Positions 10,001-37,080 of a stretch of DNA of 40,877 nucleotides are shown in pieces. Each line of letters starts with the position of its first letter. Within the stretch, counting starts at the first letter, position 1. Source of the stretch: Betaproteobacteria bacterium (GTDB taxonomy: Bacteria; Pseudomonadota; Gammaproteobacteria; Burkholderiales; Gallionellaceae); contig JAIOPT010000010.1 in NCBI GenBank assembly GCA_021413765.1, positions 1 to 40,877 on the forward strand. The letters run 5' to 3'. The notes below the pieces were generated by a model, which had not been told where the DNA came from, did not search any database, and saw only the letters and a list, made by a program, of their open reading frames with translations. The translations under genes were made by a program, and so were the position numbers.

Positions 10001-10175
10001 TCACCAGTACATCGGCGCTGGAACCGGGAAACGATATCGAAACCGTGACCCGCGGAGGCGCAATATCTGGAAACTGGGAAATGGGCAATGATTTCATTGC
10101 CACAAACCCCATGAATAGGAACATCAGCGATAACACGATCGCCATCACCGGTCTCTTGAGAAAAATATTAAACAT
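6999..10175 (-). CDS. RND multidrug efflux permease (AcrB/MexF-like, HAE-1)
   Basis: 1058 aa; N-terminus MFNIFLKRPVMAIVLSLMFLFMGFVAMKSLPISQFPDIAPPRVTVSISFPGSSADV; GIVVDDAIVVVEAV in TM4; PGEDQGMIYAIIQTPPGS. Confidence 0.96.
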   Translation of the reverse strand: MFNIFLKRPVMAIVLSLMFLFMGFVAMKSLPISQFPDIAPPRVTVSISFPGSSADVLVKSSLIMLERAINGVPGMKYITSDATSAGEATIQVYFNLGVDPNIAMVNVKTRVDQMMSRLPKLVQLEGVIVNFVQPSMLMYVNLFSKDKNADQNLLFNYAYVNVIPEIQRITGIAQATILGARQYAMRIWLNPERMRAYSVSSEEVMEAIGNQSIIGRPGRLGQSTGMAAQSKEYVLVYKGRFNKPEEYGDIIIRSTPTGEILRIKDVAKVDLNSEFYNIFSDKDGYPSASIVLKQNYGTNAQKVIENVKEKLEEMQKSFPEGMEYEINYDVSRFVDASIEKVLHTLVEAFLLVSLVVFIFLGDWRSTLIPILAVPVSLVGAFAVMSAFGLSINLITLFALVLAIGIVVDDAIVVVEAVHAKMAAENCSPYEASRKVLGEIGGAIVAITLVMVSVFIPIAFMPGPVGVFYRQFSIAMASSIIISAVVALSLAPVLCAMILKNTQGHPKRKNPISLFIDGFNFVFEKVTGRYIKLLNVTVTRRIVTVLVLAGFGFGVFVIDKTLPAGFIPGEDQGMIYAIIQTPPGSTIEVTNRVARQLEVIAAKIEGVQSVSSLAGYEILTEGRGSNAGTSIINLKDWSQRKHSVQDVIHELEEKAHNLGAIIEFFQPPAVPGYGAASGLAFRLLDKTLDTNYFEFDKINQAFMDAMRKRKELTGLFTFYAANYPQYELVIDNKLAMQKGVTIEKAMNHLDIMIGSTYEQGFIRFNNFFKVYAQALPEFRRSPEDVLKYFVKNDKGEMVPYSAFMTMVKKQGPNEITRYNLYNSAAIRAEPATGYTTGAAIKAVEEVAKATLPQGFDVAWEGLSFDEALRGNEALLIFAIVIMFVYLVLAAQYESFVLPLVVLCSLPPGIFGAFLLLKGLGLANDVYSQLGMIMLIGLLGKNAVLIVEFATQKQTQGMTVLEAAIAGAKERFRPILMTSFAFIAGLVPLAMATGAGAIGNRTIGTSALGGMLFGTVFGVIIIPGLYYIFAKMIEGKKLIQHEDLYPLTETYHYGPNDNQN

Positions 10176-10197
10176 GGTTTAATCCCGACCTGAAGGG

Positions 10198-11292
10198 TTA
10201 CTCTGTATACAATTTCTTCAACTCTGAGCGAACTTTTTGGGGTGGTCTTAAATCGATCTCCACCTTTTCTCCAGGACGAACTTTGCGTATACCTTCGAGC
10301 AGAACCCTGTCAGTGTTATTCAGGCCATCTTTAACAATAAACAGCTGTGGCAATTCGGCCTCTATATGGATCAGCCTTTGCTCCACTTTTTCTTCTTTGT
10401 TGATGACGTAGACATAGGTTTTATCCATGATTTCGAACGTCGCTTTTTGGGGGATGAGCATGGCGTTAGGGTAAGGCCTGGCCATTAGGATTGTTCCTGT
10501 CTCACCATGCCTGAGAATTTTGTCCGGGTTAGCGAACAAGGCACGGAATTGGATATTGCCGGAAGTATTATTAAAATCACCTACAATTGCCTCAATGACC
10601 CCCGTTTGATTGAAAATCTCGCCATCTGCCATTTTTAGCTGCACTGTTTCACCGATTTTGTCTTTTTTGTGCGTCTTAAAATCTAGGTATTGGGCTTCTG
10701 GAACGTTGAAATAGACCCACAATTGGCTGACGTCAGACAGTGTTGTCAACAACGCACCTTCATCGAGAAGGCTGCCGACCCTAACAACTAAATGATCCAT
10801 AATCCCTTCAAAAGGTGCTTTGATATCGGTGAAACCTAAGCGGGTTTCCGCCATTTTCACTTCCGCCTTAGCCTTATCTAATTTTGCTTTTGCCAAAGCC
10901 AATTCATTGGTCGATACGATATTCTTATCAGCCAGGCCTTTGGTATTAAGGTATTCGATGTTCATCTTTTGCGCTTCGGCTTCCGCTTTTAGAAGTTCTG
11001 CCTGATAGATATTGGGCATGATTTTAAACATGGGCTGTCCCTTTTTTATCAATTGCCCTTCATCCACAAAAATATCTTGTAAGTAGCCCTTTTCCAAAGA
11101 GCGGACTTCAATATGCCTAATGGCACGAATCTGTGAGACATAGCCTTTCGTGAGGGAAACGTCTTCACGGAACGGTGTAGTTGCCGCATATTTAGGCATT
11201 TCTTTATGTATCTCAGTTTCTGCCTGAAGATGACATCCACTCAAAAATAGCGTGGCGATTAAGCCTAGAATTACGGATGATTTAGTGATCAT
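10198..11292 (-). CDS. RND efflux periplasmic adaptor subunit (AcrA/MexE-like membrane fusion protein)
   Basis: Lipobox-like LFLSGC; VRSLEKGYLQDIFVDEGQLIKKGQPMFKI lipoyl half-motif; coiled coil; TDIKAPFEGIMD second half. Confidence 0.93.
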   Translation of the reverse strand: MITKSSVILGLIATLFLSGCHLQAETEIHKEMPKYAATTPFREDVSLTKGYVSQIRAIRHIEVRSLEKGYLQDIFVDEGQLIKKGQPMFKIMPNIYQAELLKAEAEAQKMNIEYLNTKGLADKNIVSTNELALAKAKLDKAKAEVKMAETRLGFTDIKAPFEGIMDHLVVRVGSLLDEGALLTTLSDVSQLWVYFNVPEAQYLDFKTHKKDKIGETVQLKMADGEIFNQTGVIEAIVGDFNNTSGNIQFRALFANPDKILRHGETGTILMARPYPNAMLIPQKATFEIMDKTYVYVINKEEKVEQRLIHIEAELPQLFIVKDGLNNTDRVLLEGIRKVRPGEKVEIDLRPPQKVRSELKKLYTE

Positions 11293-23444: not shown

Positions 23445-26228
23445 ATGCTAAAGACTAACAGGCAAAAAATAACCGCTTCTATAATTTCTGGAACGATACT
23501 GTTCATGGGTGGCATGACCGCCTGCGGCAAAACGCAGACCTCCGAGACACTTGTTAATGAAGCCAAGCAGTACCAACAGAAGGGCGACAGCAAGGCCGCC
23601 ATCATCCAACTAAAAAATGCGTTACAGAAGAACCCGGATGATGTCGAGGCTCGTTATCTATTGGGCACCATCTACAATAAAACAGGAGATTTCCCATCAG
23701 CCGAGAAGGAACTCCGTAAGGCATTGAGTTTGGGCACGAGTCCCGCCAAGGTATCTCCTGACTTGGGCAAGACCTTGCTCATGCAAGGGAAGTTCCAGAT
23801 GGTGCTGGATGAAATAAAGCAGATTCCAGGAGAAAAAGAATCTGCTGAAATATCAACTTTGCGCGGTAATGCTTACCTGGCCTTAGACAAAGGCAAAGAA
23901 GCCAAGGAATCGTTTGAGCAGGCCCTAAAGATAACGTCTGATTTCCCGGACGCGCTCATTGGGCTAGCTAGACATTCTATTACGGAGAAAAATGTTGATG
24001 CCGCAACTCGTTTTTCCGAGCAAGCTGTAACCAAAAATCCACAAAACACGGACGCTTTGCTCTTTAAAGGCGATCTTCTGCGCGCCCAAGAAAAAATCGA
24101 ACCCGCTCTTGCCGCTTATGACCAAGTGTTAAAATTACAACCGGACAATAACTCAGCACATATCAACAAAGCCTTCCTGGAAATTGGTACAGGGAAATTC
24201 GATGCAGCCAAGGCAGACATCGACGCGGCACGTAAAACATCTCCGAACAATCTCACTAATATTTATGCGCAAGCTCTACTTGATTTCCGCCAAGGGAAAC
24301 ATGCTGCAGCATTGGAATCTTTACAGCAGGTTCTGCGTGCAGCACCAGAGCACATGCCTAGCGTTCTGCTGGCAGGAGCCGTGCAATTAGCGCTTGGATC
24401 ATTACCGCAAGCCGAACAACACATTAAAAAATACCTGGAGAAGGATCCAGGTAATCTCTACGCTCGTAAATTAATGGTATCCACATTATTGAAAAGCCGC
24501 CGGACAAAAGACGCAGTCGATGTATTGTCGCCAGCGCTTAAAGTTGCGCAACAAGATGATGTTCAAATGTTAGCTCTCGCGGGCGAAGCATATATGCAGG
24601 CAGGAGACTACACAAAGTCGACGGAATATTTTACAAAGGCCAGCTCGCTTGCTCCCAAAGCTGCAGAACTACACACTGCTCTAGGCTTAAGCAAACTGGC
24701 GCTAGGCGAGAAAGACCGTGCCGTGGCCGAAATGGAAACAGCTGCAGCATTGGACACCAAGTCACCCAAGGCAGGCACCATGCTGGTGATGACTCGCCTT
24801 CGCCTTAAAGAATACGATAAGGCACTCGCAGCAGCGAAAACCCTTGAGAAAGAACAGCCAGACAACCCCCTTGCTCACAACCTGAAAGGCGCTGCCTACT
24901 TGGGCAAAAATGATAGCGCTGCCGCACGCGCGAGCTTTGAAAAGGCACTTTCCATTCAACCTACCAATTTTCCTGCTGTTATGAACCTCGTGCAACTTGA
25001 CTTGCGGGACAAAAAGCCAGAAGCAGCCAAAAAACGACTTGAGGCTATCCTTGAAAAAGATAAAAAAAATTCTCAAATTATGACTGCGCTAGCCGATCTT
25101 GCGCTCTCTCAAGGGCAAACAAAGAATGCCACCACTTGGCTAGAGAATGCCAGCAAAGAAAACCCGGATGCATTGCAGCCGGCCATGCTGCTGGCAACTC
25201 ATTATTTACGCATAGGTGAAAAACAGAAAGCACTTACCCTCGCCCGAAAACTTCAAGGCTCCAACTCAAGCAACCCAGAAGTTCTCAATATCCTGGGACA
25301 AGCCCAATTCGCCAACGACGATAAGCCAGCTGCTTTGGAAACCTACAGCAGACTTGCCGCCATGAAGCCGGACTCCGCCCCTGCCCAATTCCTGATCGCC
25401 GCCGTTCACATGGCAATGCAAAACCAGCCGGCAGCATCAGATGCCCTCAAAAAGGCGCTATCATTGCGACCGGATTATCTGGATGCGCAATTGGCACTTG
25501 CCTCTCTGGAGGCCAACAAAGGAAATTATGAGCAAGCGCTCACAATTGCCCGGCAGCTTCAGAAAAAGAACTTTAAATCACCTGTAGGCTACGAGCTGGA
25601 AGGTAATCTGCTGATGGCGCAAAGAAAACCTGATTTAGCAGTGAAGGCCTATGAACAGGCGTTCACTATCAGCAAGAATGGTGCGCTCATGGTGAAGTTG
25701 CATGCTGCCCTAGGCCAAGCCGGTAAAGGCAAGGTAGCAGACACACGTCTGTCTCAATGGCTAAAAGAACATCCTACCGACGAACCCACCCGCATGTATC
25801 AGGCAGGAATTTATCTTGCAAACAAGCAGAACAAAGCTGCTATCGAGCAATATCAGGCTGCGTTGCAACAAAATTCAAAAAACATTCCGGCGCTGAACAA
25901 TCTTGCTTGGCTCTATCAGCAGGAAAAAGATCCGCGCGCCTTGGAGTATGCCGAGAAAGCCAACCAACTGGCACCGGACAATCCCGCGATACTCGACACC
26001 TTGGGTTGGATGCTGTTAGAGCAAGGCAACACAACGCGCGGCCTGCCACTTCTGCAAAAGGCTGCCAACGCAGCGCCGGAAGCAGCAAGTATCCGTTACC
26101 ATCTCGTGTTGGGGTTGGTTAAATCTGGGGACAAGGCCAATGCGCGTAAAGAGTTGGAGAAGATTCTGGCCACTGGAAAACCTTTTCCCCAGATTGAGGA
26201 AGCAAAAACTTTGCTGAAGCAGTTGTAG
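23445..26228 (+). CDS. prsT: PEP-CTERM system TPR-repeat lipoprotein, PrsT family
   Basis: Lipobox GGMTACGKTQTSETLVNEAKQYQQKGDSKAAIIQLKNALQKNPDDVEARYLLG; 927 aa of TPR repeats; typical PrsT N-terminus; PEP-CTERM genes nearby. Confidence 0.9.
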   Translation: MLKTNRQKITASIISGTILFMGGMTACGKTQTSETLVNEAKQYQQKGDSKAAIIQLKNALQKNPDDVEARYLLGTIYNKTGDFPSAEKELRKALSLGTSPAKVSPDLGKTLLMQGKFQMVLDEIKQIPGEKESAEISTLRGNAYLALDKGKEAKESFEQALKITSDFPDALIGLARHSITEKNVDAATRFSEQAVTKNPQNTDALLFKGDLLRAQEKIEPALAAYDQVLKLQPDNNSAHINKAFLEIGTGKFDAAKADIDAARKTSPNNLTNIYAQALLDFRQGKHAAALESLQQVLRAAPEHMPSVLLAGAVQLALGSLPQAEQHIKKYLEKDPGNLYARKLMVSTLLKSRRTKDAVDVLSPALKVAQQDDVQMLALAGEAYMQAGDYTKSTEYFTKASSLAPKAAELHTALGLSKLALGEKDRAVAEMETAAALDTKSPKAGTMLVMTRLRLKEYDKALAAAKTLEKEQPDNPLAHNLKGAAYLGKNDSAAARASFEKALSIQPTNFPAVMNLVQLDLRDKKPEAAKKRLEAILEKDKKNSQIMTALADLALSQGQTKNATTWLENASKENPDALQPAMLLATHYLRIGEKQKALTLARKLQGSNSSNPEVLNILGQAQFANDDKPAALETYSRLAAMKPDSAPAQFLIAAVHMAMQNQPAASDALKKALSLRPDYLDAQLALASLEANKGNYEQALTIARQLQKKNFKSPVGYELEGNLLMAQRKPDLAVKAYEQAFTISKNGALMVKLHAALGQAGKGKVADTRLSQWLKEHPTDEPTRMYQAGIYLANKQNKAAIEQYQAALQQNSKNIPALNNLAWLYQQEKDPRALEYAEKANQLAPDNPAILDTLGWMLLEQGNTTRGLPLLQKAANAAPEAASIRYHLVLGLVKSGDKANARKELEKILATGKPFPQIEEAKTLLKQL

Positions 26229-26721: not shown

Positions 26722-27516
26722 ATGAGTACAGGCTCCTACCACTTCGAAACTCTCAATGACGCTGCTTTTCAAGCCGAGCGGCTGCGCCAGCAAGCCCAAG
26801 CAGTCCGTGGCATGGAGGCCGGCATATTGCGTTCGGCAGGCATTCAGTCCGGGCACGATGTACTTGAATTGGGCTGCGGCCCAGGGTTTGTTTCCGACCT
26901 ATTAGCCGAACTGGCACCAGAGGGTAGCCTGTATGCCGTGGAGCCAAGCCCCACTCTGTTGGCTCGGGTGGAGGGCAATGTTCGCAAAAAACCTGCCCGG
27001 GGCTTGTTCCCGATTCAGGCATACGGAGACCACTTGCCCGTCCCGGATAGCAGCATCGATTTTTCCTACGCCCGGTTCGTTCTTCAGCACATTCCCCAGC
27101 CCGAAACCGTAGTCTCGGAAATCCACCGGGTTATGAGGACAGGTGGACATTTCTGCGCCGTCGACTCCGACGATGGTTTAGTCGTTTTATACCCTGAAGA
27201 TTCCCGCGTCAGTCAAATTCTGCACACGGCGCAGACAACCCAAACTGAAAAGGGGGGAGATCGTTTTATTGGCCGCAAATTGCAACACATGATGACCCGC
27301 GCAGGTTTTATCAACGTCAAAAGTCGCATCCTCGCCCTCACCAGCAGCGAACTACCCTTCGATGCGCTATTCAACATCCTTCTGGGTTACAAAGCTTCTA
27401 TGCTGGGCGATGCCGTCGACATCAAGCAATTGTTCGATGATCTGTCGCAGAAAGTAGTGGGCGGTCGCCAATTAATCGCCGGTGGTGTATTCATCGTCAC
27501 CGGAGAAAAAGCTTGA
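26722..27516 (+). CDS. Class I SAM-dependent methyltransferase
   Basis: GHDVLELGCGPGFVSDLLAELAPEGSLYAVEPSPTLL; FSYARFVLQHIPQPETVVSEIHRVMRTGGHFCAVDSDDG. ATG 26722 (MSTGSYHFETL) preferred over 26686. Confidence 0.9.
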   Translation: MSTGSYHFETLNDAAFQAERLRQQAQAVRGMEAGILRSAGIQSGHDVLELGCGPGFVSDLLAELAPEGSLYAVEPSPTLLARVEGNVRKKPARGLFPIQAYGDHLPVPDSSIDFSYARFVLQHIPQPETVVSEIHRVMRTGGHFCAVDSDDGLVVLYPEDSRVSQILHTAQTTQTEKGGDRFIGRKLQHMMTRAGFINVKSRILALTSSELPFDALFNILLGYKASMLGDAVDIKQLFDDLSQKVVGGRQLIAGGVFIVTGEKA

Positions 27517-27542
27517 ATATCAACCAGACTAAGGGGCCTAGT

Positions 27543-28271
27543 ATGGAAACCGTCTATTTCCGTTTCGAGGAGGTTGTGCTGGGAACCCCTGCCTATGAAT
27601 TTTATCTTGAATTCCGTTATGAAATATTCTGCAAAGAACTTCAACGGATTACTCCGTCCCCACATCTGTTATCCAGCAATGGCCGACCCATAGAAACTGA
27701 TCAATATGACCCACACAGTCGCCATTTCATGGCCTACCACAAAGCTACCGGCAGCTCCGCGGCATCAGCCCGAGTCATTCTCCCCAACCCCATTGGGCTA
27801 AATGTGACTCCTAGATACATCATTGAGCGCCCCCTACCCTACCCAGATGCGACCGATGACAATACGGGTGAAATCTCCCGCATGGCCATTGCACAACAGT
27901 TCCGGCGTCGTCAAGAGGACAGAGACAAGCCATTTCAGGGTGACCCTGAACCTGAAATGAGCTGCCAGCCTGAAAAAAACCGTCGCCGTCAACCAGAACT
28001 AGTTTTGGGCATATACCGGGAAATCTATCTACTCTGCCAACAAGTTGGCATTAGATACTGCATGGCAGCCATGGATAATCGCTTCAGTCGACTCCTTAAT
28101 ACATTGGGGTTCCCATGTGTTCCAGTTGGACCCGTCAATGAAAATATCCAACCCCCAAGGCGGGTCTATCTCATCAGCGCATTTGAAATGGAACGCAGCC
28201 TGAGCCAACGCGAAACGTGTACCCTCAGTTTTCTTAAAGCGCAAGATACGCCCCCCTCTCCCTCACCCTGA
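27543..28271 (+). CDS. PEP-CTERM/exosortase system-associated acyltransferase (LuxI/N-acyl amino acid synthase-like), paralog A
   Basis: EFRYEIFCKELQRI, ETDQYDPHSRHFMAYH, GEISRMAIAQQFRRR, CMAAMDNRFSRLLNTLGFPCVPVGPVNENIQPPRRVY; overlaps the upstream methyltransferase ORF. Confidence 0.85.
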   Translation: METVYFRFEEVVLGTPAYEFYLEFRYEIFCKELQRITPSPHLLSSNGRPIETDQYDPHSRHFMAYHKATGSSAASARVILPNPIGLNVTPRYIIERPLPYPDATDDNTGEISRMAIAQQFRRRQEDRDKPFQGDPEPEMSCQPEKNRRRQPELVLGIYREIYLLCQQVGIRYCMAAMDNRFSRLLNTLGFPCVPVGPVNENIQPPRRVYLISAFEMERSLSQRETCTLSFLKAQDTPPSPSP

Positions 28272-28576
28272 CTAATAGTAAGGCCGATACAGAAGCTATA
28301 ATTTGACGTGAGAACCGTACTCTGAATTCTGCAAGACGTTGTAAACGCAATACCGCCGACCTCCAATCCCGCATACAAATCAAGTACCCCGCCGCAAGCA
28401 GCGAGGTGTTAACACCGCTCTCCAAACTGCCGGCTTTTAGCCAGCATTAACCCCAATAGACAGGAAATTTAACCCATAAAGATTTAACGGCATTCTGAAT
28501 AGTCTATGCTATGAACTATATACAAAACTATTTATAAATAAACTATTCTATTCCGTACATCTTACAAAAACCACGA

Positions 28577-28598
28577 TTTGTCTCTTTTTAACGACAAA
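28577..28598. promoter_or_regulatory. Candidate activator dyad UAS-1 (TTTGTC-N10-GACAAA)
   Basis: TTTGTCTCTTTTTAACGACAAA, about 125 bp upstream of the candidate sigma-54 -24 element. Confidence 0.4.
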
Positions 28599-28640
28599 AA
28601 TATTTGTTTAATTTCAAATGATTATCATAAAATCTTGATT

Positions 28641-28662
28641 TATGTTGCCATATAACGACATA
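28641..28662. promoter_or_regulatory. Candidate activator dyad UAS-2 (TATGTT-N10-GACATA)
   Basis: TATGTTGCCATATAACGACATA: same geometry and shared right half AACGACAWA as UAS-1, 64 bp downstream of it. Confidence 0.4.
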
Positions 28663-28722
28663 TTTAGCAAAAAATATAACTACACATACTTTAACTGTAT
28701 GATTTTTATTTATAATAAATAA

Positions 28723-28738
28723 TGGCATGATTCATGCT
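28723..28738 (+). promoter_or_regulatory. Candidate sigma-54 (-24/-12) promoter upstream of acyltransferase B
   Basis: TGGCATGATTCATGCT against TGGCACG-N4-TTGCW, with exactly 10 nt between GG and GC; GTG start 47 nt downstream of the -12 element. Confidence 0.7.
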
Positions 28739-28784
28739 TTATAAATAATGAAATGTTGTGTATTAATAAAGGAGCATTGTAAAA

Positions 28785-29504
28785 GTGGAGAAAAACTTCG
28801 AATATTCCATAGTGATGCCGGGTAGCCGGGCATACCGGGATTATCTTGCTCTGCGACATACAGTCTTCTGTGAAGAATTAAAGCGTGTGCCCAGTATTAA
28901 CCGATTTTTAAGTGACGTTCCGTTGGAGAGTGATGCTTACGATGCACACAGTGTTCACGTGCTGTGCCGTTCATTGGAAACGGGTACTGCCGTGGGCTGT
29001 TCTCGGCTGATTCTGCCCAGTGCCAAAGGCCTGAGCATTACCTCCCGTTACCCGATGTCCCATCAGGTAGCCATCTCGTCCAACCAGATTGGGGAAATTG
29101 GTCGTTTGGCCATTGCCAAAGAATTACGCCGAAACCGCGGTGAACTCTCAAGTGCCGGGCTGCATCAGACATCATCACAACGCCCACATGCTGCAAGCGC
29201 GTCTGACAAACAAGACGGACCGCTCGTGGCTATGGGGCTGTATAACGAAATCTTCAAACTTGCTAACAAATATGGCCTTGCTCACTGCTACGCTGCCATG
29301 GAGCCCTCCTTGGCCCGATTACTCACTCGGATCGGCTTCCCATTCCAAGTTGCCGGCCCTCTCAATAGCGCAGTTCAACCCCCGCGCCAACCCTATTCCA
29401 TTGAAGTCCATGTCACTAAAACAGTCTTTGCCAACCGTGGCACCTGTCTGCCACTTTGCATATCCAGAGATTCTCATCTGAACGCATCTCTGCTTGCCGC
29501 TTAA
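28785..29504 (+). CDS. PEP-CTERM/exosortase system-associated acyltransferase (LuxI/N-acyl amino acid synthase-like), paralog B
   Basis: GTG start with AAAGGAG Shine-Dalgarno; LRHTVFCEELKRV, ESDAYDAHSVHVL, GEIGRLAIAKELRRNRG, CYAAMEPSLARLLTRIGFPFQVAGPLNSAVQPPRQPY parallel paralog A. Confidence 0.85.
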   Translation: MEKNFEYSIVMPGSRAYRDYLALRHTVFCEELKRVPSINRFLSDVPLESDAYDAHSVHVLCRSLETGTAVGCSRLILPSAKGLSITSRYPMSHQVAISSNQIGEIGRLAIAKELRRNRGELSSAGLHQTSSQRPHAASASDKQDGPLVAMGLYNEIFKLANKYGLAHCYAAMEPSLARLLTRIGFPFQVAGPLNSAVQPPRQPYSIEVHVTKTVFANRGTCLPLCISRDSHLNASLLAA

Positions 29505-29900
29505 CCTATTCACACAAATTAGAATTCTATAGAATCAGCCATCCAATAGATTGGCCAAGACATCTGAATTCTGACTTTCCCGGGAAGGATAAGTCGAACT
29601 AATTTGTGATGTCTATGACCGATTCTAAAAATCTTTTGCAAACTGGAAGCCAGAGAATATAGCCTATATCCAGTAATTAATCCAAGAAAACAACTCTATT
29701 TTTAAATTTTTTCACGCAGCAAATAATAGCCTTGGGTAAAACGTGGCGAGACTAACCTACGAGAAAAAGGTAAAAAAAATTTCAAGTTCACCCGGCTTTA
29801 GAATATAGCAAACAACCAGTAATGGTCTGCGGGCTTTTATGAAAATTATTCGAACCAAACCTTATCGTAGTTATTGTTATAACTTTCTAGACGCAGCAAT

Positions 29901-29936
29901 AAACAAAGCCGCGCAGTTACCTGCGCGGCTTTGTTT
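29901..29936 (-). terminator. Rho-independent terminator-like hairpin downstream of the PEP-CTERM gene
   Basis: Perfect 16-bp stem AAACAAAGCCGCGCAG-TTAC-CTGCGCGGCTTTGTTT, just past the stop of the minus-strand gene at 29951. Confidence 0.85.
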
Positions 29937-29950
29937 GGATCAAACTTAAG

Positions 29951-30889
29951 TTAAGCAGCTTTTTTATTGCGGCGACTGAAGCTTAAACCCAGCAGTCCTA
30001 AACCCAACAGGGCGATACTAGTTGGTTCAGGAACAGAATACTCGATCGATCCGTCATGATCAGAATGAATTATTTGCAATTGATTACCAAATCCAGCCGG
30101 ACCAGCTGAACCATTACCTGCCACATTGACTACATGGTTTGTGTTCTGATCAACAGAAGCGTTCAATTTTATCGGAATCAATAAGCCCAGTAAGTCATGG
30201 AAATCTTTATCACCCGCATCTACTATGCCATTTCCATTATCAAACCAAAAGAAATTATCCCGGGCGAAAGTTATCTCAGCAAACAGGTTGGATGAACCAG
30301 TAACAAACTGTCCAAGCGAGTTGAAAGTGCTTGAACCAGTACCACTGGTAAGAGTAAGAGTTAATACGTGAGTTCCATTGCCAAAGCCGCTATCATCACT
30401 CGTACCAACCGATGCCCCATAATTAGCATTACCCGGAGCATCGAAGTAAAAATTAAATACGCCACCAGCAACATAGTTAGTTGTAGTAATAAAGCCACCA
30501 GTCAAGGAGCCAGTTGTAATCGGCGTTACGGCAGATATTGAGCCTACCAAATTATTCCATTGAGTAGTGATCTCTGCAATAATGCCAGAGCCAATATCCA
30601 GATTGATACCTTCCTGATCACCGCTTGGCAATCCACTCGTAAAGTGTGCATCACCAGCGTCAATAAACTTATCACCGACATTCAGCGATCCAGAATTATT
30701 TGTATCGTAAATTACTGAAGTTGTGTTTGCAAATACCTGATGAGAATCAAAAGTTCTAGTTGTGGTATTTGCATCTCCGATAGCCGGTCCAAGCCCACCA
30801 ACATTAATATAAAATGGATCTGCCAGTGCGACACCCGAAGCTATCGCGAAAGGGATTGCCATCAATACAATCAGTTTCTTAAGTTTCAT
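29951..30889 (-). CDS. PEP-CTERM sorting-domain exported protein
   Basis: Signal peptide MKLKKLIVLMAIPFAIASGVALA; C-terminal YSVPEPTSIALLGLGLLGLSFSRRNKKAA (VPEP + hydrophobic stretch + basic tail). Confidence 0.96.
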   Translation of the reverse strand: MKLKKLIVLMAIPFAIASGVALADPFYINVGGLGPAIGDANTTTRTFDSHQVFANTTSVIYDTNNSGSLNVGDKFIDAGDAHFTSGLPSGDQEGINLDIGSGIIAEITTQWNNLVGSISAVTPITTGSLTGGFITTTNYVAGGVFNFYFDAPGNANYGASVGTSDDSGFGNGTHVLTLTLTSGTGSSTFNSLGQFVTGSSNLFAEITFARDNFFWFDNGNGIVDAGDKDFHDLLGLLIPIKLNASVDQNTNHVVNVAGNGSAGPAGFGNQLQIIHSDHDGSIEYSVPEPTSIALLGLGLLGLSFSRRNKKAA

Positions 30890-30948
30890 TTTATTCTCCT
30901 ATTTTATTTTAAAATTCTGTCAGAGCGTTACACTCTCACCCTAGTTAA

Positions 30949-30964
30949 AGCACATTCCATGCCA
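30949..30964 (-). promoter_or_regulatory. Candidate sigma-54 (-24/-12) promoter for the PEP-CTERM gene
   Basis: Minus strand TGGCATGGAATGTGCT: same TGGCATG-N4-NTGCT form as 28723-28738; 59 nt upstream of the ATG at 30889. Confidence 0.65.
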
Positions 30965-31132
30965 TAAATATAATATGTAAATTAATCAATATGATATTTC
31001 TATCTCAATAATTTTTCAATTGTATGAGTGTAAAATTTTTCGACAAGCAGTTTCCAAGAATGAATCTATTGCTGAGCATAGTAATAGGTGGATACACAAC
31101 CTACTACGCTTGCAATTTCTACCTCCCTACGT

Positions 31133-31148
31133 GAAGATGTGCATCTTC
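31133..31148. promoter_or_regulatory. Dyad GAAGATG-TG-CATCTTC upstream of the ThiF-like gene (possible operator)
   Basis: Perfect 7-bp arms with a 2-nt centre, 25 nt upstream of the ATG at 31174. Confidence 0.35.
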
Positions 31149-31173
31149 AATTACCAGTTTATAGAGGTCTTCG

Positions 31174-32040
31174 ATGACTGAATTTGATTATGATAGTGCC
31201 TTTAGCCGCAACTTGGGTATTGTCAGCTCGGATGAACACACTCGTCTGCGCCTATCCACTGTAGCTATCGCCGGTATGGGTGGTGTCGGTGGGGATTACC
31301 TCATCAGTTTGGTGCGCGCCGGGGTTGGCGGGTTCCACATCGCCGAGTTCGATGAGTTTGAGATGGCCAACTTCAACCGACAGTACGGGGCCAATACCCG
31401 CACGCTCGGCCGCCGCAAGATTGAAGCGATGCTTGAATATGCATTGGAAATCAATCCTGAACTACGTGTAAAAATTTTCGACAAAGGCCTTGATGTAAGT
31501 AATATTGACGCATTTCTCTCAGGCGTGGATCTGGCCGTTGACGGCATGGATGTGTTCGCGGTGGACATGCATCCGCTGCTGATAAACTCAGCCACGGGAC
31601 GGGGGCTTATCACCGTGGCAGCGGTGCCACTGGGACTGGGGGCGGGCGTGCTGGCATTTGGACCGGGGGGCATGTCTTATGAAGATTACTTTGCCATTTC
31701 CCCGGAGATGAGCGAAGAGGAAAAGATCATCCAGTTTGCTTTGGGCTTTGCCCCCGAGATGTATCATCTGAAATATCTGGATCCAAAATCAATTAACCTA
31801 AAGGCACGCAAGGGACCAAGCTCAATCGCCGGCTGCAAGCTGTGTGCAGGCTTCATCACCACCCAAGCGCTGCTAGCCTTGTTACATCCGCAGGAATTGC
31901 ACTTGGCGCCTTGGTACACTTATCTGGATGCTCGTCTCAACCGCTTTCATCACCGCCGCTTATGGCTTGGCAACCGTAATCCGCTACAACGACTGAAGAG
32001 CTTTGTAGCAAAGAAACGATTAGATAAAGCCAGTAAATAA
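31174..32040 (+). CDS. ThiF/MoeB/HesA-family E1-like adenylyltransferase
   Basis: VAIAGMGGVGGDYLISLVRAGVGGFHIAEFDEFEMANFNRQYGANTRTLGRRKIEAM (nucleotide-binding GxGxxG, NRQ); single CxxC (GCKLCAGF). Confidence 0.9.
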   Translation: MTEFDYDSAFSRNLGIVSSDEHTRLRLSTVAIAGMGGVGGDYLISLVRAGVGGFHIAEFDEFEMANFNRQYGANTRTLGRRKIEAMLEYALEINPELRVKIFDKGLDVSNIDAFLSGVDLAVDGMDVFAVDMHPLLINSATGRGLITVAAVPLGLGAGVLAFGPGGMSYEDYFAISPEMSEEEKIIQFALGFAPEMYHLKYLDPKSINLKARKGPSSIAGCKLCAGFITTQALLALLHPQELHLAPWYTYLDARLNRFHHRRLWLGNRNPLQRLKSFVAKKRLDKASK

Positions 32041-32157
32041 GCGTAGCAGCTTTACAAGGCAGGTATTAAACTAAAAGTTAGTTAATCTGCCTGAGTTAAA
32101 GATTCATTCATATTTTCCGAATATAAATAAACTACTCACTCATAAATTAAATTGCCG

Positions 32158-32173
32158 AGGCAATAATTATGCC
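32158..32173 (+). promoter_or_regulatory. Weak candidate sigma-54 promoter upstream of the MMPL-LolA gene
   Basis: AGGCAATAATTATGCC has the GG-N10-GC spacing but is also inside a GAGGCA-N7-TGCCTC palindrome, so it may be coincidental. Confidence 0.3.
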
Positions 32174-32260
32174 TCTTACTCAGCATGAAATTTAGGCATG
32201 CTGGTTCAACTCTACCAATTTTTGAGTAATTCCGGATGTCTGATTAGCAAAGAGGTAAGC

Positions 32261-35200
32261 ATGCAACGCTACATAGAATGGATTATTCGCTACCGATTCG
32301 TAGTCATTACCTTGACGTTAGTCATCACAATTGCAGCAGTCATTCAGGCCAAAAACCTGAATATCATTATCGATCCTAATACCATGCTTCCCCAGTCTCA
32401 TCCCTATGTGACGACGAGCAACCTGGTTGAAAAGGTTTTTGGGTCGAAGTATGTTGTCATGGTAGGGATCACTCCGAAAGAGGGTGACATCTACCAGCCA
32501 GTAGTATTGGAAAAGGTTCAGCGTATGACGGCGGCTTTTCTTCAGACGCCTGGCGTGGTTAAAGAAAATCTGCTGAGCCTTTCCTCGAAACGCGCCAAGA
32601 ATATTGCTGGTACAGCAGAAGGTTTGGAAGTCAAGCCGTTAATGTCAAATGTTCCAACTACGGCCGCGCAAATTATAGAACTAAGAAAAGCAATCGAGAA
32701 GAACCCTGTTTATTTGAATTCCATCGTGTCTGTTGATGCAAAAACAACTGCCATTCTCGTGGAATTCAAGGACGGGCCGGGTGGTTTTCGGGCAATCATG
32801 AATAAAGTGGAGGCTGTCGTTGAGCATGAACGAGACTCCCGGGTTGAAATCAACGTGGGGGGAATTCCAAGTTTTCTTGCCCGCATTGAAATTTACTCAG
32901 AGCGTATAGGATTTCTCTTCCCAATTGCTATCTTGGTTTTGAGCCTGGTCCTTTTTGAAGCCTTTCGGACGAAGCAGGGGCTTGTCTTGCCACTTCTAAC
33001 GGCGGGTCTGGCGGTAGCGTGGGGGGTGGGCGTTATGGGCGCTTCCGGCATTCCAATGGATGTGTTTAACTCCGCGACCCCAATTTTGATCCTAGCGGTG
33101 GCGACAGGTCATGCTGTGCAGTTGCTCAAGCGCTATTACGAAGAATATTTCCGCTTGCGTGAAACAACTGATCTTTCTCCCAAGGCTGCAAATAATCAAG
33201 CTGTCGTTTCTTCTCTTATCCGCGTTGGACCAGTCATGATTGCCGCCGGAGTGGTCGCCTCACTGGGATTCTTTTCCTTGGTGATATTTAAAATCAGCAC
33301 GGTGCGCACTTTTGGGATTTTTACCGGCATCGGGATCCTTGCGGCATTGACTCTTGAAATGACTTTTATTCCGGCTTTACGTTCAATGCTGGCTCCACCA
33401 AGTGATACTGAAAGCAAGCGTGTACAGAAGGGGCGGATTTGGGACAAAACGACCAACGCGATAGCGAGCTGGGTGACTGGCACCAGCCGGCACAGGGTAT
33501 ACGGGGGTGTTTTGCTTTTCGTAATTATTACCTTGATCGGCGTAAGCAGGGTTACAGTAGATAATTCCACCAAGAGTTTTTTTTCTCCTGAACTGATTTT
33601 TGAAACAGACGATAAAGCACTGAATGATCGCCTTGGCGGTACCAATACAATGTATTTGCTGATTGAAGGCGCAAGCGACGATGCCATCAAGAATCCCAAA
33701 ACACTTCACGCCATAGAAGAGCTGCAACGTTTTCTTGAAAAACAGCCCTATGTAGGTAAGACTCTTTCGTTAGCCGACTTTATAATGCGCATGAATCAGG
33801 CTATGCATGGAGACGATCCCGCTTATTATAAAATTCCGGACAGTCAGGAATTGATTTCGCAATATTTACTGCTCTACTCAATGTCCGGCGAACCGGGCGA
33901 TTTCGATTCCTATGTCGATTTTGGTTACCGCTCCGCCAATCTGACGGTATTTCTGAAGACTGATAGCAGCGCCTACATAGAGAAGCTGGTCAAAGAAATT
34001 AATGCCTTCACAGCACTAAACTTCGATAAAAATGTGCATATTGGAATTGGCGGTAGCGTCCCTCAAGGCGCAGCGCTCAATGAGGTTATGGTTTACGGGA
34101 AGATACTCAACATTCTACAAATCACTGTTGTTGTTTTCATTATATCCAGCCTGATTTTCCGTTCATTGATAGCAGGAATGCTGGTTCTTTTGCCTCTTCT
34201 GGTTGCTGTGCTGGCTAACTTTGGCCTTATGGGGTGGAGTGGAATCCCACTGAACATATCAACTTCACTTATCTCGGCGATGGCCGTTGGAATAGGCGCA
34301 GATTACGCAATTTATCTGATCTACCGGTTACGCGAAGAACTTATCATGGGAACCGACGAAATCACAGCTGTCCGAAACGTCATTGGAACAGCTGGCCAAG
34401 CTATTCTATTTGTCGCGATCTCGGTATCAGCTGGTTACGGGGTACTGCTGTTGTCATTTGGGTATAATATCCACAAGTGGTTGGCTATTCTGATTGCTGA
34501 GGCCATGATTATGAGTTCGCTATCTGCGCTATTGCTGATTCCCGCGCTAATTCTTACATTCCGTCCCGATTTTATTTTCAGGAGAGCTGCCATGAAACAG
34601 AATTCAATGCCTATATCAATCGTTATATTGGTACTTGTTTTTGGTCTGTCAATGCAATCTAAAAATAGCTGGGCAGCGGAAATTGATCTGACTCAAATCA
34701 TGCAAAAGAATTTTGTCGTTTCCAAGGTTTATGATTCGATGGCTGATGCCACGTTTACCCTGATTAATAAGTCCGGACAGGAACGGGTGCGTAAAACTTT
34801 CGGCACGACCAAGCTTGAGGAAAATAGCATCGACAACATGCGCATGACGCGGTTCTTATCACCACCGGATGTAAAAGGAACGGTATCACTGCTGATCGAA
34901 CATGCCGACAAGGATGACGACATCTGGATATATCTACCTGCACTAAAGAAAGTGCGACGCCTTGTTTCCAACAACAAGAAAGATAGTTTTGTGGGAACGG
35001 ATTTTTCGTATGCCGACGTGATTGGTTATAAGGTTGGCGAATGGAATTACAAGTTGCTGAAAGAGGAGTTGGTAGAGGGGCAGCCCTGTTACGTTATCGA
35101 AGCAATACCAAAATCTGAAACCGTTAAAACTAATAATGGCTACTCGAAACGCGTCGGCTGGCTGCGCAAGGACAATTTAATGGCAGTAAAAATGGATTTT

Positions 35201-35407
35201 TGGGATGAGGCAGGGCAGCTGTTAAAAACCTCGACATATACAGATATTCAATTGGTAGACAAGACGCGTGGCAAGTGGCAGGCAATGCGTCTTGAAGCAA
35301 CTAATGTTCAGACCGGCCACCGTACAGTGATTAAATTCGATAATTTCAAGGCAAACCAGCAGGTGAAGGATGAATTCTTTACTACACGGTACATGGAAAA
35401 AGAATAA
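32261..35407 (+). CDS. MMPL/RND-superfamily exporter fused in frame to a LolA-like outer-membrane lipoprotein-sorting protein
   Basis: N-terminal half has RND topology with two TM blocks (MQRYIEWIIRYRFVVITLTLVITI; ISAMAVGIGADYAIYLIYRLREE). C-terminal part MKQNSMPISIVILVLVFGLSMQSKNSWAAEIDLTQIMQKNFV...LPALKKVRRLVSNNKKDSFVGTDFSYADVIGYKV is LolA-like. ATG 32261 preferred over 32198. Confidence 0.88.
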   Translation: MQRYIEWIIRYRFVVITLTLVITIAAVIQAKNLNIIIDPNTMLPQSHPYVTTSNLVEKVFGSKYVVMVGITPKEGDIYQPVVLEKVQRMTAAFLQTPGVVKENLLSLSSKRAKNIAGTAEGLEVKPLMSNVPTTAAQIIELRKAIEKNPVYLNSIVSVDAKTTAILVEFKDGPGGFRAIMNKVEAVVEHERDSRVEINVGGIPSFLARIEIYSERIGFLFPIAILVLSLVLFEAFRTKQGLVLPLLTAGLAVAWGVGVMGASGIPMDVFNSATPILILAVATGHAVQLLKRYYEEYFRLRETTDLSPKAANNQAVVSSLIRVGPVMIAAGVVASLGFFSLVIFKISTVRTFGIFTGIGILAALTLEMTFIPALRSMLAPPSDTESKRVQKGRIWDKTTNAIASWVTGTSRHRVYGGVLLFVIITLIGVSRVTVDNSTKSFFSPELIFETDDKALNDRLGGTNTMYLLIEGASDDAIKNPKTLHAIEELQRFLEKQPYVGKTLSLADFIMRMNQAMHGDDPAYYKIPDSQELISQYLLLYSMSGEPGDFDSYVDFGYRSANLTVFLKTDSSAYIEKLVKEINAFTALNFDKNVHIGIGGSVPQGAALNEVMVYGKILNILQITVVVFIISSLIFRSLIAGMLVLLPLLVAVLANFGLMGWSGIPLNISTSLISAMAVGIGADYAIYLIYRLREELIMGTDEITAVRNVIGTAGQAILFVAISVSAGYGVLLLSFGYNIHKWLAILIAEAMIMSSLSALLLIPALILTFRPDFIFRRAAMKQNSMPISIVILVLVFGLSMQSKNSWAAEIDLTQIMQKNFVVSKVYDSMADATFTLINKSGQERVRKTFGTTKLEENSIDNMRMTRFLSPPDVKGTVSLLIEHADKDDDIWIYLPALKKVRRLVSNNKKDSFVGTDFSYADVIGYKVGEWNYKLLKEELVEGQPCYVIEAIPKSETVKTNNGYSKRVGWLRKDNLMAVKMDFWDEAGQLLKTSTYTDIQLVDKTRGKWQAMRLEATNVQTGHRTVIKFDNFKANQQVKDEFFTTRYMEKE
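34592..35407 (+). CDS. Possible internally initiated LolA-like periplasmic protein nested in frame within the MMPL ORF
   Basis: AGGAGA at 34580-34585, 6-nt spacer, ATG 34592, then a complete signal peptide MKQNSMPISIVILVLVFGLSMQSKNSWA. Confidence 0.55.
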   Translation: MKQNSMPISIVILVLVFGLSMQSKNSWAAEIDLTQIMQKNFVVSKVYDSMADATFTLINKSGQERVRKTFGTTKLEENSIDNMRMTRFLSPPDVKGTVSLLIEHADKDDDIWIYLPALKKVRRLVSNNKKDSFVGTDFSYADVIGYKVGEWNYKLLKEELVEGQPCYVIEAIPKSETVKTNNGYSKRVGWLRKDNLMAVKMDFWDEAGQLLKTSTYTDIQLVDKTRGKWQAMRLEATNVQTGHRTVIKFDNFKANQQVKDEFFTTRYMEKE

Positions 35408-37080
35408 TGCTGCAAATGCGCGTCAGTATTATATGTTGCGCAAGGCGCGCTTTAGTATCGGCATTTTTTTTTGCATCGCTCAGCGCACAGTCAGCTCATG
35501 CTTTATTCATAGGTGAAATCGAAATTATCAGCAGGGAAGGAGAACCTCTGCTCGCGTATGTTCAAATATCCCCGACAAGACCTGACGAAAAAATATCTGC
35601 CACCTGCTTTTCATTGACGAAGGCAGGGGGCGGCCCCGTGCAAGAAGGGCCAGACTTGTCAGCTGCAAAATTGGAACTGGAAGGAAGCAAAAATATTGGC
35701 CAACGAATTAAAATTTCCACAGCGGCCCCAATCAATGCGCACTTGCTGACGTTCCAGCTAAAAGCGCGCTGTGTCTCGAATGGTCTAATTATCCGCGAAT
35801 TCAATCTCGAATTGAAACCAGCGAGAAACCCGTTATCCTCTCAGGCAGAGAGCTTCTCGGCGCCAGCGGAAAAAATTATTGTGGATGACTTTCAAAAGCC
35901 AGATGAAAAAAGTGTTCTACGGAAGCCTGATCTGAATGGCTCGGTTCGTGCGGGATATTTCAGCTCGTCGCGCAAGCTGGATGGGAAAAATGATTTGGGT
36001 ACCGGCTCGGTATGGCTTAAAGCTACACAAAATATCGGGGAGGACATTTCCCTAGTCGCTAAGGGATGGGTTCGAAACGATGAATCTTATGGGTCTTTGA
36101 AAAAATTACAAGAGGGATATCTGAACTTCAGTTCCGGAAATGTGGATTATCGAGTCGGCAGACAGATCATAGTATGGGGACGTGCAGATCGCTTGAATCC
36201 AACCGACAATCTGACACCACGAAACTTCACTCTGCTAACTCCGGAGGAAGATGATCAGAGAATAGGATCGTTGGCAGCGAAAGTAACTTATCACTTACAT
36301 GACAATTCGCTGACCGGCATATGGCTCCCTGATATGAATCCCAATATTTTTCCTGTCACTACAACGCCGGGAATTTTTTTTACTCAACACATTCCTAATA
36401 CTAACCGAATTGCACTCAAGTTCGATCGAAGTGGAGGTGATGTGGATTGGTCAACTTCTTACTATAGTGGGCTGGATCTGAATCCTGACATTGCCATTGG
36501 AGCAGCAACCACATCTGGAACAAATTTAATATTTAATCACAATCACATCCGAGTATTTGGAATGGATGCCGCTACGGTCATTGGGCGCTATGGATTGCGT
36601 GCTGAAGCTGCATACACTTGGACAGCTAACACCGGTGTGAGCGACTTTCTGATCAAAAAACCATTTCTCTACATGGTGATGGGAGGTGATAGAACTTTCT
36701 TCGATTATCTTAATGTCAATATCCAATATTACCTCCGCCATGTTACAAATTATTCCGATCCACAGGCGATAGCCGATCCTCTCCTGCGAACAGTCGCGGT
36801 TCAAGCAGCTGCGCTATGGAACCAGTTCAGCCGCTCTCAGCATGGGATAAGTGTCCGGGTCAGCAATAAATGGTTTAATGAAACGCTGGAAGGCGAAATC
36901 GCTACTGTCGCCTCTTTTGGACTCAGCAATTATTTTATAAGGCCTAAATTGGTATATGCCTTTAGTGACAACGTGAAAGGATCGCTTGGCCTGGATATTT
37001 ATCGAGGAGAAAGTAATACGTTCTTCGGTCGGTTACGGGACAACTCGTTGTTATTTGCGGAGATGAAATACGGCTTCTGA
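35407..37080 (+). CDS. Outer-membrane beta-barrel protein (alginate-export/DUF1302-like) with FimV-like N-terminal domain
   Basis: Signal peptide ending AQSAHA; N-domain LFIGEIEIISREGEPLLAYVQI...RCVSNGLIIREFNLELKP; barrel part YRVGRQIIVWGRADRLNPTDNLTPRNFTLLTPEEDDQRIGSLAAKV, terminal MKYGF. Confidence 0.75.
   Translation: MLQMRVSIICCARRALVSAFFFASLSAQSAHALFIGEIEIISREGEPLLAYVQISPTRPDEKISATCFSLTKAGGGPVQEGPDLSAAKLELEGSKNIGQRIKISTAAPINAHLLTFQLKARCVSNGLIIREFNLELKPARNPLSSQAESFSAPAEKIIVDDFQKPDEKSVLRKPDLNGSVRAGYFSSSRKLDGKNDLGTGSVWLKATQNIGEDISLVAKGWVRNDESYGSLKKLQEGYLNFSSGNVDYRVGRQIIVWGRADRLNPTDNLTPRNFTLLTPEEDDQRIGSLAAKVTYHLHDNSLTGIWLPDMNPNIFPVTTTPGIFFTQHIPNTNRIALKFDRSGGDVDWSTSYYSGLDLNPDIAIGAATTSGTNLIFNHNHIRVFGMDAATVIGRYGLRAEAAYTWTANTGVSDFLIKKPFLYMVMGGDRTFFDYLNVNIQYYLRHVTNYSDPQAIADPLLRTVAVQAAALWNQFSRSQHGISVRVSNKWFNETLEGEIATVASFGLSNYFIRPKLVYAFSDNVKGSLGLDIYRGESNTFFGRLRDNSLLFAEMKYGF

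Follow-up and report, generated by a model that had tools for sequence, protein, structure and literature searches.

A conserved methyltransferase–acyltransferase–ThiF cluster of Candidatus Nitrotoga and its probable role in synthesis and export of an acylated amino-acid lipid

The window analyzed here, the whole stretch of 40,877 nucleotides, originates from Candidatus Nitrotoga, a nitrite-oxidising bacterium, and carries a conserved cluster that fairly probably, in connection with the XrtA/PEP-CTERM surface system, directs the synthesis and export of an acylated amino-acid lipid. A preliminary description of the region 26722–37080 had proposed acylated-metabolite synthesis and export tied to an exosortase. 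Profile searches recovered every gene named there, with PrsT upstream (Table 1), and the core of that proposal stands, as the genes remain neighbours in different lineages and every type A genome (defined below) encodes XrtA. Its assumptions about the exporter and about the novelty of the pathway had to be revised.

Table 1. Features of the cluster and of its upstream flank, with the profile matches of their products
Feature	Coordinates	Strand	Profile matches and remarks
PrsT, XrtA/PEP-CTERM system TPR lipoprotein	23445..26228	+	TIGR02917 988 bits (cut-off 312)
SAM-dependent methyltransferase (MTase)	26722..27516	+	Methyltransf_11 70 bits
Acyltransferase AT1, LuxI/FeeM fold	27543..28271	+	Acetyltransf_5 36.9 bits; TIGR03694 105.9 bits
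Acyltransferase AT2, AT1 paralogue	28785..29504	+	TIGR03694 130 bits
PEP-CTERM protein, probable XrtA substrate	29951..30889	-	PF07589 32 bits; tail VPEPTSIALLGLGLLGLSFSRRNKKAA
Stand-alone E1/ThiF-like adenylyltransferase	31174..32040	+	PF00899 104 bits; NF006077/PRK08223 342 bits (cut-off 266)
HAE3-like MMPL/RND permease fused to C-terminal LolA-like domain	32198..35407	+	PF03176 154 bits, PF17131 (LolA_like) 193 bits, one frame
Outer-membrane beta-barrel-like protein, DUF1302-like	35407..37080	+	FimV_N (PF25800) 33 bits; DUF1302 22.8 bits

Conservation of the type A cluster

In Nitrotoga, PrsT marks the upstream flank of a variable cassette, a position shared by 10 congener loci. The version present in the window, MTase-AT1-(AT2)-PEP-CTERM-ThiF, is designated type A; its PEP-CTERM gene is convergent with AT2 and divergent from ThiF. 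Four congeners repeat this gene order, and at least seven further betaproteobacterial genomes at species level show it with variation, a recurrence far beyond chance. Together with an exporter, the set is found in six or more betaproteobacterial families; its hosts are Nitrotoga, Sulfuricella, Rugosibacter, Methylophilaceae, Thauera, Hydrogenophaga, and Sulfurimicrobium. The ThiF proteins of type A form one clade (support 100/100), and the tree of acyltransferases places AT1 in a clade of its own, with AT2 as its sister (97/95), both nested in a clade found only in type A (100/100); the parts therefore travel together. AT2 is absent from two of the 12 type A loci, which weighs against the proposed pathway.

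The MTase is specific to, and conserved in, this version of the cluster. Its orthologues in 11 related loci share 61–88% identity, with the SAM motif VLELGCGPGF almost invariant, and every one of the 12 type A loci with the upstream side covered has it, against none of the 66 type B loci. The distribution of the nitroreductase is the reverse, in type B and not in type A: no match to the cassette nitroreductase was found in the genome of the window or in the four type A congeners whose listed completeness is 100%, nor any convincing one in ten other type A genomes. The PEP-CTERM gene occupies the matching place in 12 related loci, with mature domains that belong to different families; as the search pattern for these proteins was loose, counts were limited to type A, for which the aligned tails were inspected.

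In some Nitrotoga, the same flanks (PrsT on one side and MMPL-LolA-barrel-GAF on the other) enclose a FeeM, ThiF, and nitroreductase cassette instead, which is the Oxz/Tyz set exchanged into the same site, with the same exporter alongside. Beyond this group, Nitratidesulfovibrio vulgaris encodes a 989-aa FeeM-ThiF-nitroreductase fusion within an XrtA locus with PEP-CTERM genes, and Bdellovibrio has a LolA-ABC-FtsX-ThiF arrangement.

Acyltransferases, the ThiF-like enzyme, and the proposed route

AT2 exceeds the curated cut-off of TIGR03694 (111.95 bits), which AT1 misses narrowly and the AT1 of one congener narrowly passes; an alternative in-frame TTG start of AT1 is possible at position 27513. 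Against the profile of the FeeM-type N-acyl amino acid synthase (PF21926, gathering cut-off 27 bits), AT2 scores 21.3 bits and AT1 gives no match. The cassette ThiF retains the motifs GxGGVGG and NxNRQ, as well as Lys82 and Asp126, all aligning with MoeB of the same genome, and the adenylation residues (GxGxxG, NxxRQ, Lys, and Asp) are invariant in 10 cassette ThiF proteins. We propose that this protein is a carboxylate-activating cyclase. In oxazolone pathways, ThiF is an ATP-dependent cyclase that converts an N-acyl amino acid to an oxazolone; its homologue TyzB uses ATP to cyclize N-acyl-Tyr (PMC10404671), and TrzS yields a saturated cyclized product once desaturation is blocked (PMC12856293). 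A long branch of 1.58 changes per site leads to the type A clade of ThiF, so that the reaction of these proteins may differ from that of TyzB.

In the route proposed here, AT1 and/or AT2 would acylate an amino acid, with a fatty acyl-ACP or acyl-CoA as donor, and the free carboxylate of the resulting N-acyl amino acid would be adenylated by the ThiF-like enzyme. Cyclization to an oxazolone (azlactone), as by TyzB and TrzS, is probable, and the ring would be left saturated, since the genome has no cassette nitroreductase. The MTase may methylate the product or an intermediate. Free saturated oxazolones have not been described as end products, and the oxazolone ring is readily hydrolysed (PMC12856293), which makes the acid, an ester, or an amide possible exported forms. 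Stieleriacine-type clusters encode both ThiF and a nitroreductase, yet an oxazolone product was not seen (PMC12479983).

Other products and other roles of these enzymes have to be weighed against this route. It is conceivable, albeit unlikely, that a different nucleophile accepts the acyl-adenylate, or that the MTase forms a methyl ester, the end product being an ester or amide of an N-acyl amino acid rather than an oxazolone. The tight association of the MTase with type A, mirrored by that of the nitroreductase with type B, would fit such an outcome, as would the matches of the MTase to generic and carboxylate-type MTase profiles, although the family does not predict the methylation target, the closest solved structures are methyltransferases without assigned function, and in stieleriacine clusters the MTases act in C- or O-methylation of the ring (PMC12479983). 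The fold of AT1 raises the question of a diffusible acyl-homoserine-lactone-like signal, as the top PDB matches of its AlphaFold model (pLDDT 83.6) are the AHL synthases BjaI, TofI, and LasI, with FeeM ranked lower. We nevertheless judged a signal very unlikely, since the cluster contains no LuxR partner and a canonical LuxI with an adjacent LuxR is encoded separately in the same genome; moreover, a lactone would offer the ThiF adenylyltransferase no free carboxylate, and the sequence families assign both AT1 and AT2 to the exosortase-associated group. Membership of the cassette ThiF in the ThiF/MoeB/E1 superfamily could also be taken to indicate sulfur-carrier or protein-conjugation chemistry with no role in lipids, a reading so improbable that it was rejected: the protein has a single CxxC (221–224) and is missing the second CxxC of MoeB, a separate MoeB is encoded elsewhere in the genome, no ubiquitin-like or sulfur-carrier small protein with a GG end was found in the cluster, and close relatives of this ThiF are fused to, or lie beside, FeeM and nitroreductase.

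The exporter and the association with XrtA

The MMPL-LolA fusion matches the HAE3 family (TIGR00921, 236 bits); in two genomes MMPL and LolA are separate genes. The start of the barrel gene overlaps the MMPL-LolA stop, and the barrel adjoins MMPL-LolA downstream in every congener with a complete copy of the latter. Its signal peptide and C-terminal Phe can be read directly in the sequence, whereas its AlphaFold model (mean pLDDT 32.5) was set aside, so that the assignment relies on family matches. MMPL/RND, LolA-superfamily, and DUF1302 components are thus encoded together, with the barrel of the window itself just below the DUF1302 cut-off (23.2 bits), which homologous barrels of related exporters exceed. 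A hopanoid transporter, HpnN, was rejected, with scores of 73 and 48 bits against NCBIfam cut-offs of 751.85 and 1100.

The earlier view of the MMPL-LolA-barrel trio as a component of the pathway holds in a modified form. The exporters of type A loci are of three non-orthologous forms, varying by lineage, which led us to reject a single orthologous exporter common to all clusters. The conserved trait is the presence, beside the cassette, of an exporter of either the LolA/barrel/MMPL or the LolA/barrel/FtsX kind; each of the 12 related type A loci with sufficient sequence downstream has one. It could be argued that the trio is an independent transporter, exporting toxic hydrophobes or taking up lipids, that simply lies beside the cassette, since its homologues in other families (49–67% identity) lie beside TetR, lactate permease, or dehydrogenase genes and not beside acyltransferases, and the same architecture in Thalassolituus (TOL_3187/3188) is induced on long alkanes (PMC6304351). 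We regard this as rather improbable, because other loci of types A and B have non-orthologous LolA/barrel exporters in this position, the FtsX form is present in Nitrotoga genomes that have no MMPL-LolA, and seven control loci gave no LolA, barrel, or permease match. Homologues of the Nitrotoga exporter outside the genus occur without the cassette, an observation that counts against the model. If the exporter does serve the pathway, MMPL would pull the product out of the inner membrane, LolA would cover its acyl chain through the periplasm, and the DUF1302-like barrel would hand it to the cell surface, presumably at the site where PEP-CTERM proteins and the XrtA-associated exopolysaccharide (EPS matrix) are assembled.

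For more than ten years a connection of exosortases with N-acyl amino acid synthases has been recognized, with its role never clear; Craig, Cherry and Brady reportedly drew attention to PEP-CTERM/exosortase-associated acyltransferases in 2011. The genome of the window encodes XrtA (TIGR03109, 357.9 bits), as do 15 of 15 type A genomes. Order-wide, XrtA is found in 62 of 66 genomes bearing ThiF and in 36 of 333 without it; counted by genus, the association holds in 29 of 32, and in 20 cases ThiF and XrtA lie within 25 kb of each other. We can speculate, at a low level of probability, that the cassette supplies the exosortase system with an activated lipid partner: a saturated acyl-oxazolone, or a methylated form of it, would be exported to the surface and be an acyl donor or anchor for XrtA-cleaved PEP-CTERM proteins or exopolysaccharide. 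This would account for the co-occurrence of the ThiF cassette with XrtA, as well as for the fixed place of the PEP-CTERM gene despite its swapped mature domains. However, 36 of 98 XrtA genomes have no ThiF cassette (19 have neither the cassette nor a TIGR03694 acyltransferase), thus an acyl-oxazolone could not be an anchor in all of them. A Methylomonas mutant in an exosortase-linked N-acyl amino acid synthase lost a polysaccharide band (PMC11072679), hence the product may be of importance when biofilms and flocs form.

The cluster makes it possible to test the long-suspected connection of exosortases with acylated small molecules. The ThiF cyclase of the oxazolone pathway is a partner of XrtA in most ThiF-bearing genomes of one bacterial order, and it adjoins dedicated lipid exporters in several lineages. 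The concrete route to be tested (acylate, activate, export) is offered in cultivable hosts, Thauera linaloolentis and T. propionica.

Comparison with known systems

The closest known chemistry is that of the oxazolone/N-acyl-tyrosine pathway (OxzAB, TyzABC, TrzAS, and stieleriacine clusters), and the initial statement that no described pathway combines these parts is therefore partly wrong. An acyltransferase with a ThiF-like enzyme is already described in OxzAB of Pseudoalteromonas, TyzABC and TrzAS of Mycobacterium, and N-acyl-dehydrotyrosine clusters (PMC10404671, PMC12856293, PMC12479983), whereas the present version has no nitroreductase desaturase and includes an MTase. In common with OxzAB, TyzABC, and TrzAS, the conserved cluster of the window combines a LuxI/FeeM-fold N-acyltransferase with a ThiF-like cyclase (PMC10404671, PMC12856293), and tyz is also flanked by an MMPL gene, mmpL9. 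It differs from them in that the genome has no nitroreductase/FDO (flavin-dependent oxidase of the nitroreductase superfamily), and in the presence of two paralogous acyltransferases, the MTase, a PEP-CTERM gene, and a LolA-barrel exporter.

The stieleriacine, thalassotalic, and kyonggic acid clusters likewise combine NAS and ThiF, several of them with a methyltransferase and multiple NAS copies (PMC12479983), and the ThiF of Thalassotalea PP2-459 is 42% identical to that of the window. These N-acyl (dehydro)tyrosine clusters include a nitroreductase, and the available part of their description mentions no exporter or PEP-CTERM gene in them (PMC12479983). In addition, the NAS-like proteins of the window are TIGR03694-like and not FeeM-like. 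Within TIGR03694, to which AT2 belongs by score and AT1 comes close in a genome that has XrtA, both proteins form a clade apart from the canonical copies and are accompanied by ThiF, the MTase, and an exporter.

The exporter resembles AmeABCD of Castellaniella, consisting of an HAE3 RND permease, LolA/DUF1329, and DUF1302 (PMC6394551), as well as the aryl polyene exporter ApeL/ApeM/ApeN, in its HAE3 RND/MMPL permease, LolA-superfamily periplasmic protein, and hydrophobic cargo, which in the window would be the acylated product (PMC6394551, PMC8253772). The outer-membrane partner is a DUF1302 protein in Ame and LolB-like in Ape (PMC6394551, PMC8253772). In the window, permease and LolA form a single fused protein, and AmeC has no counterpart. 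While the Ame genes are tied to terpene catabolism and Ape to aryl polyenes, the exporter of the window is tied to N-acyl amino acid genes.

Host and Gene Content of the Window

The window corresponds to contig C130 in a draft genome of 2.5 Mb, and its organism is a nitrite-oxidising Nitrotoga, since the stand-alone ThiF-like protein (ThiF) is 93–94% identical to those of four named Candidatus Nitrotoga genomes. Family searches recovered every gene listed in the preliminary description, each at the position given there. AT2, one of two LuxI/FeeM-fold acyltransferases, scores over the cut-off of TIGR03694 (the exosortase-associated family) and AT1 slightly under it; the AlphaFold model of AT1 (pLDDT 83.6) matches the AHL synthases BjaI, TofI, and LasI, with FeeM next. 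ThiF is a member of PRK08223, which is related in NCBIfam to the longer PRK14851 and PRK14852. MoeB's adenylation residues are conserved in ThiF, but the second CxxC of MoeB is missing. Further genes of this genome are included in the table.

Coordinates of features in the window, its genome, and compared loci
Feature	Location	Strand	Content
RND multidrug efflux operon	window 5576-11292	-	complete: adaptor, AcrB-like permease, NodT-type outer-membrane factor; LysR regulator upstream
PEP-CTERM gene	window 29951-30889		between acyltransferases and ThiF
Quorum-sensing pair (L117)	G000:C143:5000-7500		canonical LuxI-type AHL synthase adjoining LuxR-type regulator; separate pair in the window's Nitrotoga
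Acyltransferase pair (L118)	G000:C135:500-2500		OlsB-like ornithine-lipid N-acyltransferase beside PlsC-like acyltransferase
ABC ATPase-FHA gene (Nitrotoga sp. 1052)	L023:12724-13704		ABC ATPase fused to FHA domain; between barrel and LolA genes of FtsX-type exporter
Fusion gene (Nitratidesulfovibrio vulgaris DP4 plasmid)	L122:8068-11034		single 989-aa FeeM-ThiF-nitroreductase protein

Conservation of the Cluster and the Cassette Slot in Nitrotoga

Scanning 84,980 species genomes for ThiF yielded 80 best loci. Of these, 14 have a ThiF of the window type (75% or more): Nitrotoga (4), Sulfuricella, Rugosibacter, a Methylophilaceae bacterium, Thauera (4), Hydrogenophaga, and Sulfurimicrobium (2). 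Among the 12 such type A loci with upstream sequence, all have the SAM-dependent methyltransferase and AT1, 10 have AT2, and none has the nitroreductase that was sought. LolA, barrel, and MMPL or FtsX permeases are found in all 12 with enough downstream sequence, the exporter genes of the Methylophilaceae locus being counted after the sequence examined was extended. Type A ThiF proteins form one clade (support 100/100), and AT1 and AT2 are sister clades nested in a type-A-only clade at 100/100. The exosortase XrtA is present in 10/10 non-Nitrotoga type A genomes; the exosortase-linked island is real and conserved, its genes recurring together across lineages.

Four congeners (G003, G007, G009, G017) keep the window order PrsT-methyltransferase-AT1-AT2-PEP-CTERM-ThiF-MMPL/LolA-barrel. 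In G006 and G008, window-type flanks enclose a different cassette, comprising a TIGR03694 acyltransferase, a true FeeM (191 bits), a ThiF with just 43–45% identity to the window type, an Acg/FDO-type nitroreductase, and a PEP-CTERM protein. The FeeM-ThiF-nitroreductase set occurs in G010, G013, and G014 (whose contig begins within it), while in G015 FeeM and ThiF are present but the nitroreductase is missing. In G010 and G013 the cassette is adjoined, within 10 kb, by genes for a DUF1302 barrel, an ABC ATPase, a LolA-like protein, and two FtsX-type permeases, this FtsX-type exporter standing where MMPL-LolA would be. Since cassettes differ between like flanks, the single site downstream of PrsT is a slot for interchangeable acyl-amino-acid cassettes in Nitrotoga, adjoined by a LolA and barrel exporter in every locus with sufficient sequence.

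The PEP-CTERM gene holds the same position in 12 related loci. The encoded proteins (window, L035-L046, L102) share signal peptide and sorting tail, with mature parts from different families, that of the window being unlike those of its congeners; the protein looks like swapped XrtA cargo rather than a pathway enzyme.

Other ThiF Loci and Association with XrtA

The 66 non-type-A loci include that of Thalassotalea PP2-459 (L112), a known producer of thalassotalic acid (PMC12479983). Nitroreductase is found in 51/66, exporter permease or LolA genes in 15/66, and the methyltransferase, also looked for, in 0/66. Two cases lie outside Proteobacteria. The N. vulgaris fusion, of the same length as PRK14852, sits inside an XrtA locus, with XrtA polysaccharide genes on one side and three PEP-CTERM genes after it. 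A Bdellovibrio sp. HAGR004 plasmid (L123) carries LolA-like, ABC ATPase, FtsX permease, and cassette-type ThiF genes in a single run. Transposases lie near this run.

Among 399 genomes of one order, with XrtA counted over the family cut-off, cassette ThiF occurs in 66, XrtA in 98, and both in 62 (on one contig in 26, within 25 kb in 20). The odds ratio is 128 and, by genus, XrtA is present in 29/32 with ThiF versus 13/126 without; p-values at both levels are inflated by relatedness, and the effect is large at either. In Nitrotoga, the 12/19 genomes with cassette ThiF are exactly the 12 with XrtA. The cassette is dispensable for XrtA presence, because 36 of the 98 XrtA genomes lack cassette ThiF and 19 lack both ThiF and TIGR03694.

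Proposed Pathway and Its Precedents

The preliminary description knew of no pathway combining these parts; the combination has precedent, the cluster being a variant of known oxazolone/N-acyl-amino-acid pathways. TyzB and TrzS are homologues of ThiF encoded next to acyltransferases of this kind; both use ATP to cyclise N-acyl amino acids (PMC10404671, PMC12856293), and TrzS yields a saturated ring once desaturation is blocked (PMC12856293). By analogy, the acyltransferases would N-acylate an amino acid and ThiF would activate or cyclise its carboxylate. Nitroreductase was absent from the window's genome and all type A genomes tested, and the predicted product is therefore saturated. The methyltransferase may then methylate it, a step that type B clusters (the other ThiF loci) would lack, and MMPL-LolA-barrel would export it.

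As far as the literature searched shows, neither the exporter link nor ThiF-XrtA co-occurrence has been described before. In composition, the exporter is like AmeABCD (PMC6394551) and the Thalassolituus MMPL-LolA/porin pair (PMC6304351), and in part like the aryl polyene exporter (PMC8253772), each of which is linked to hydrophobic cargo.
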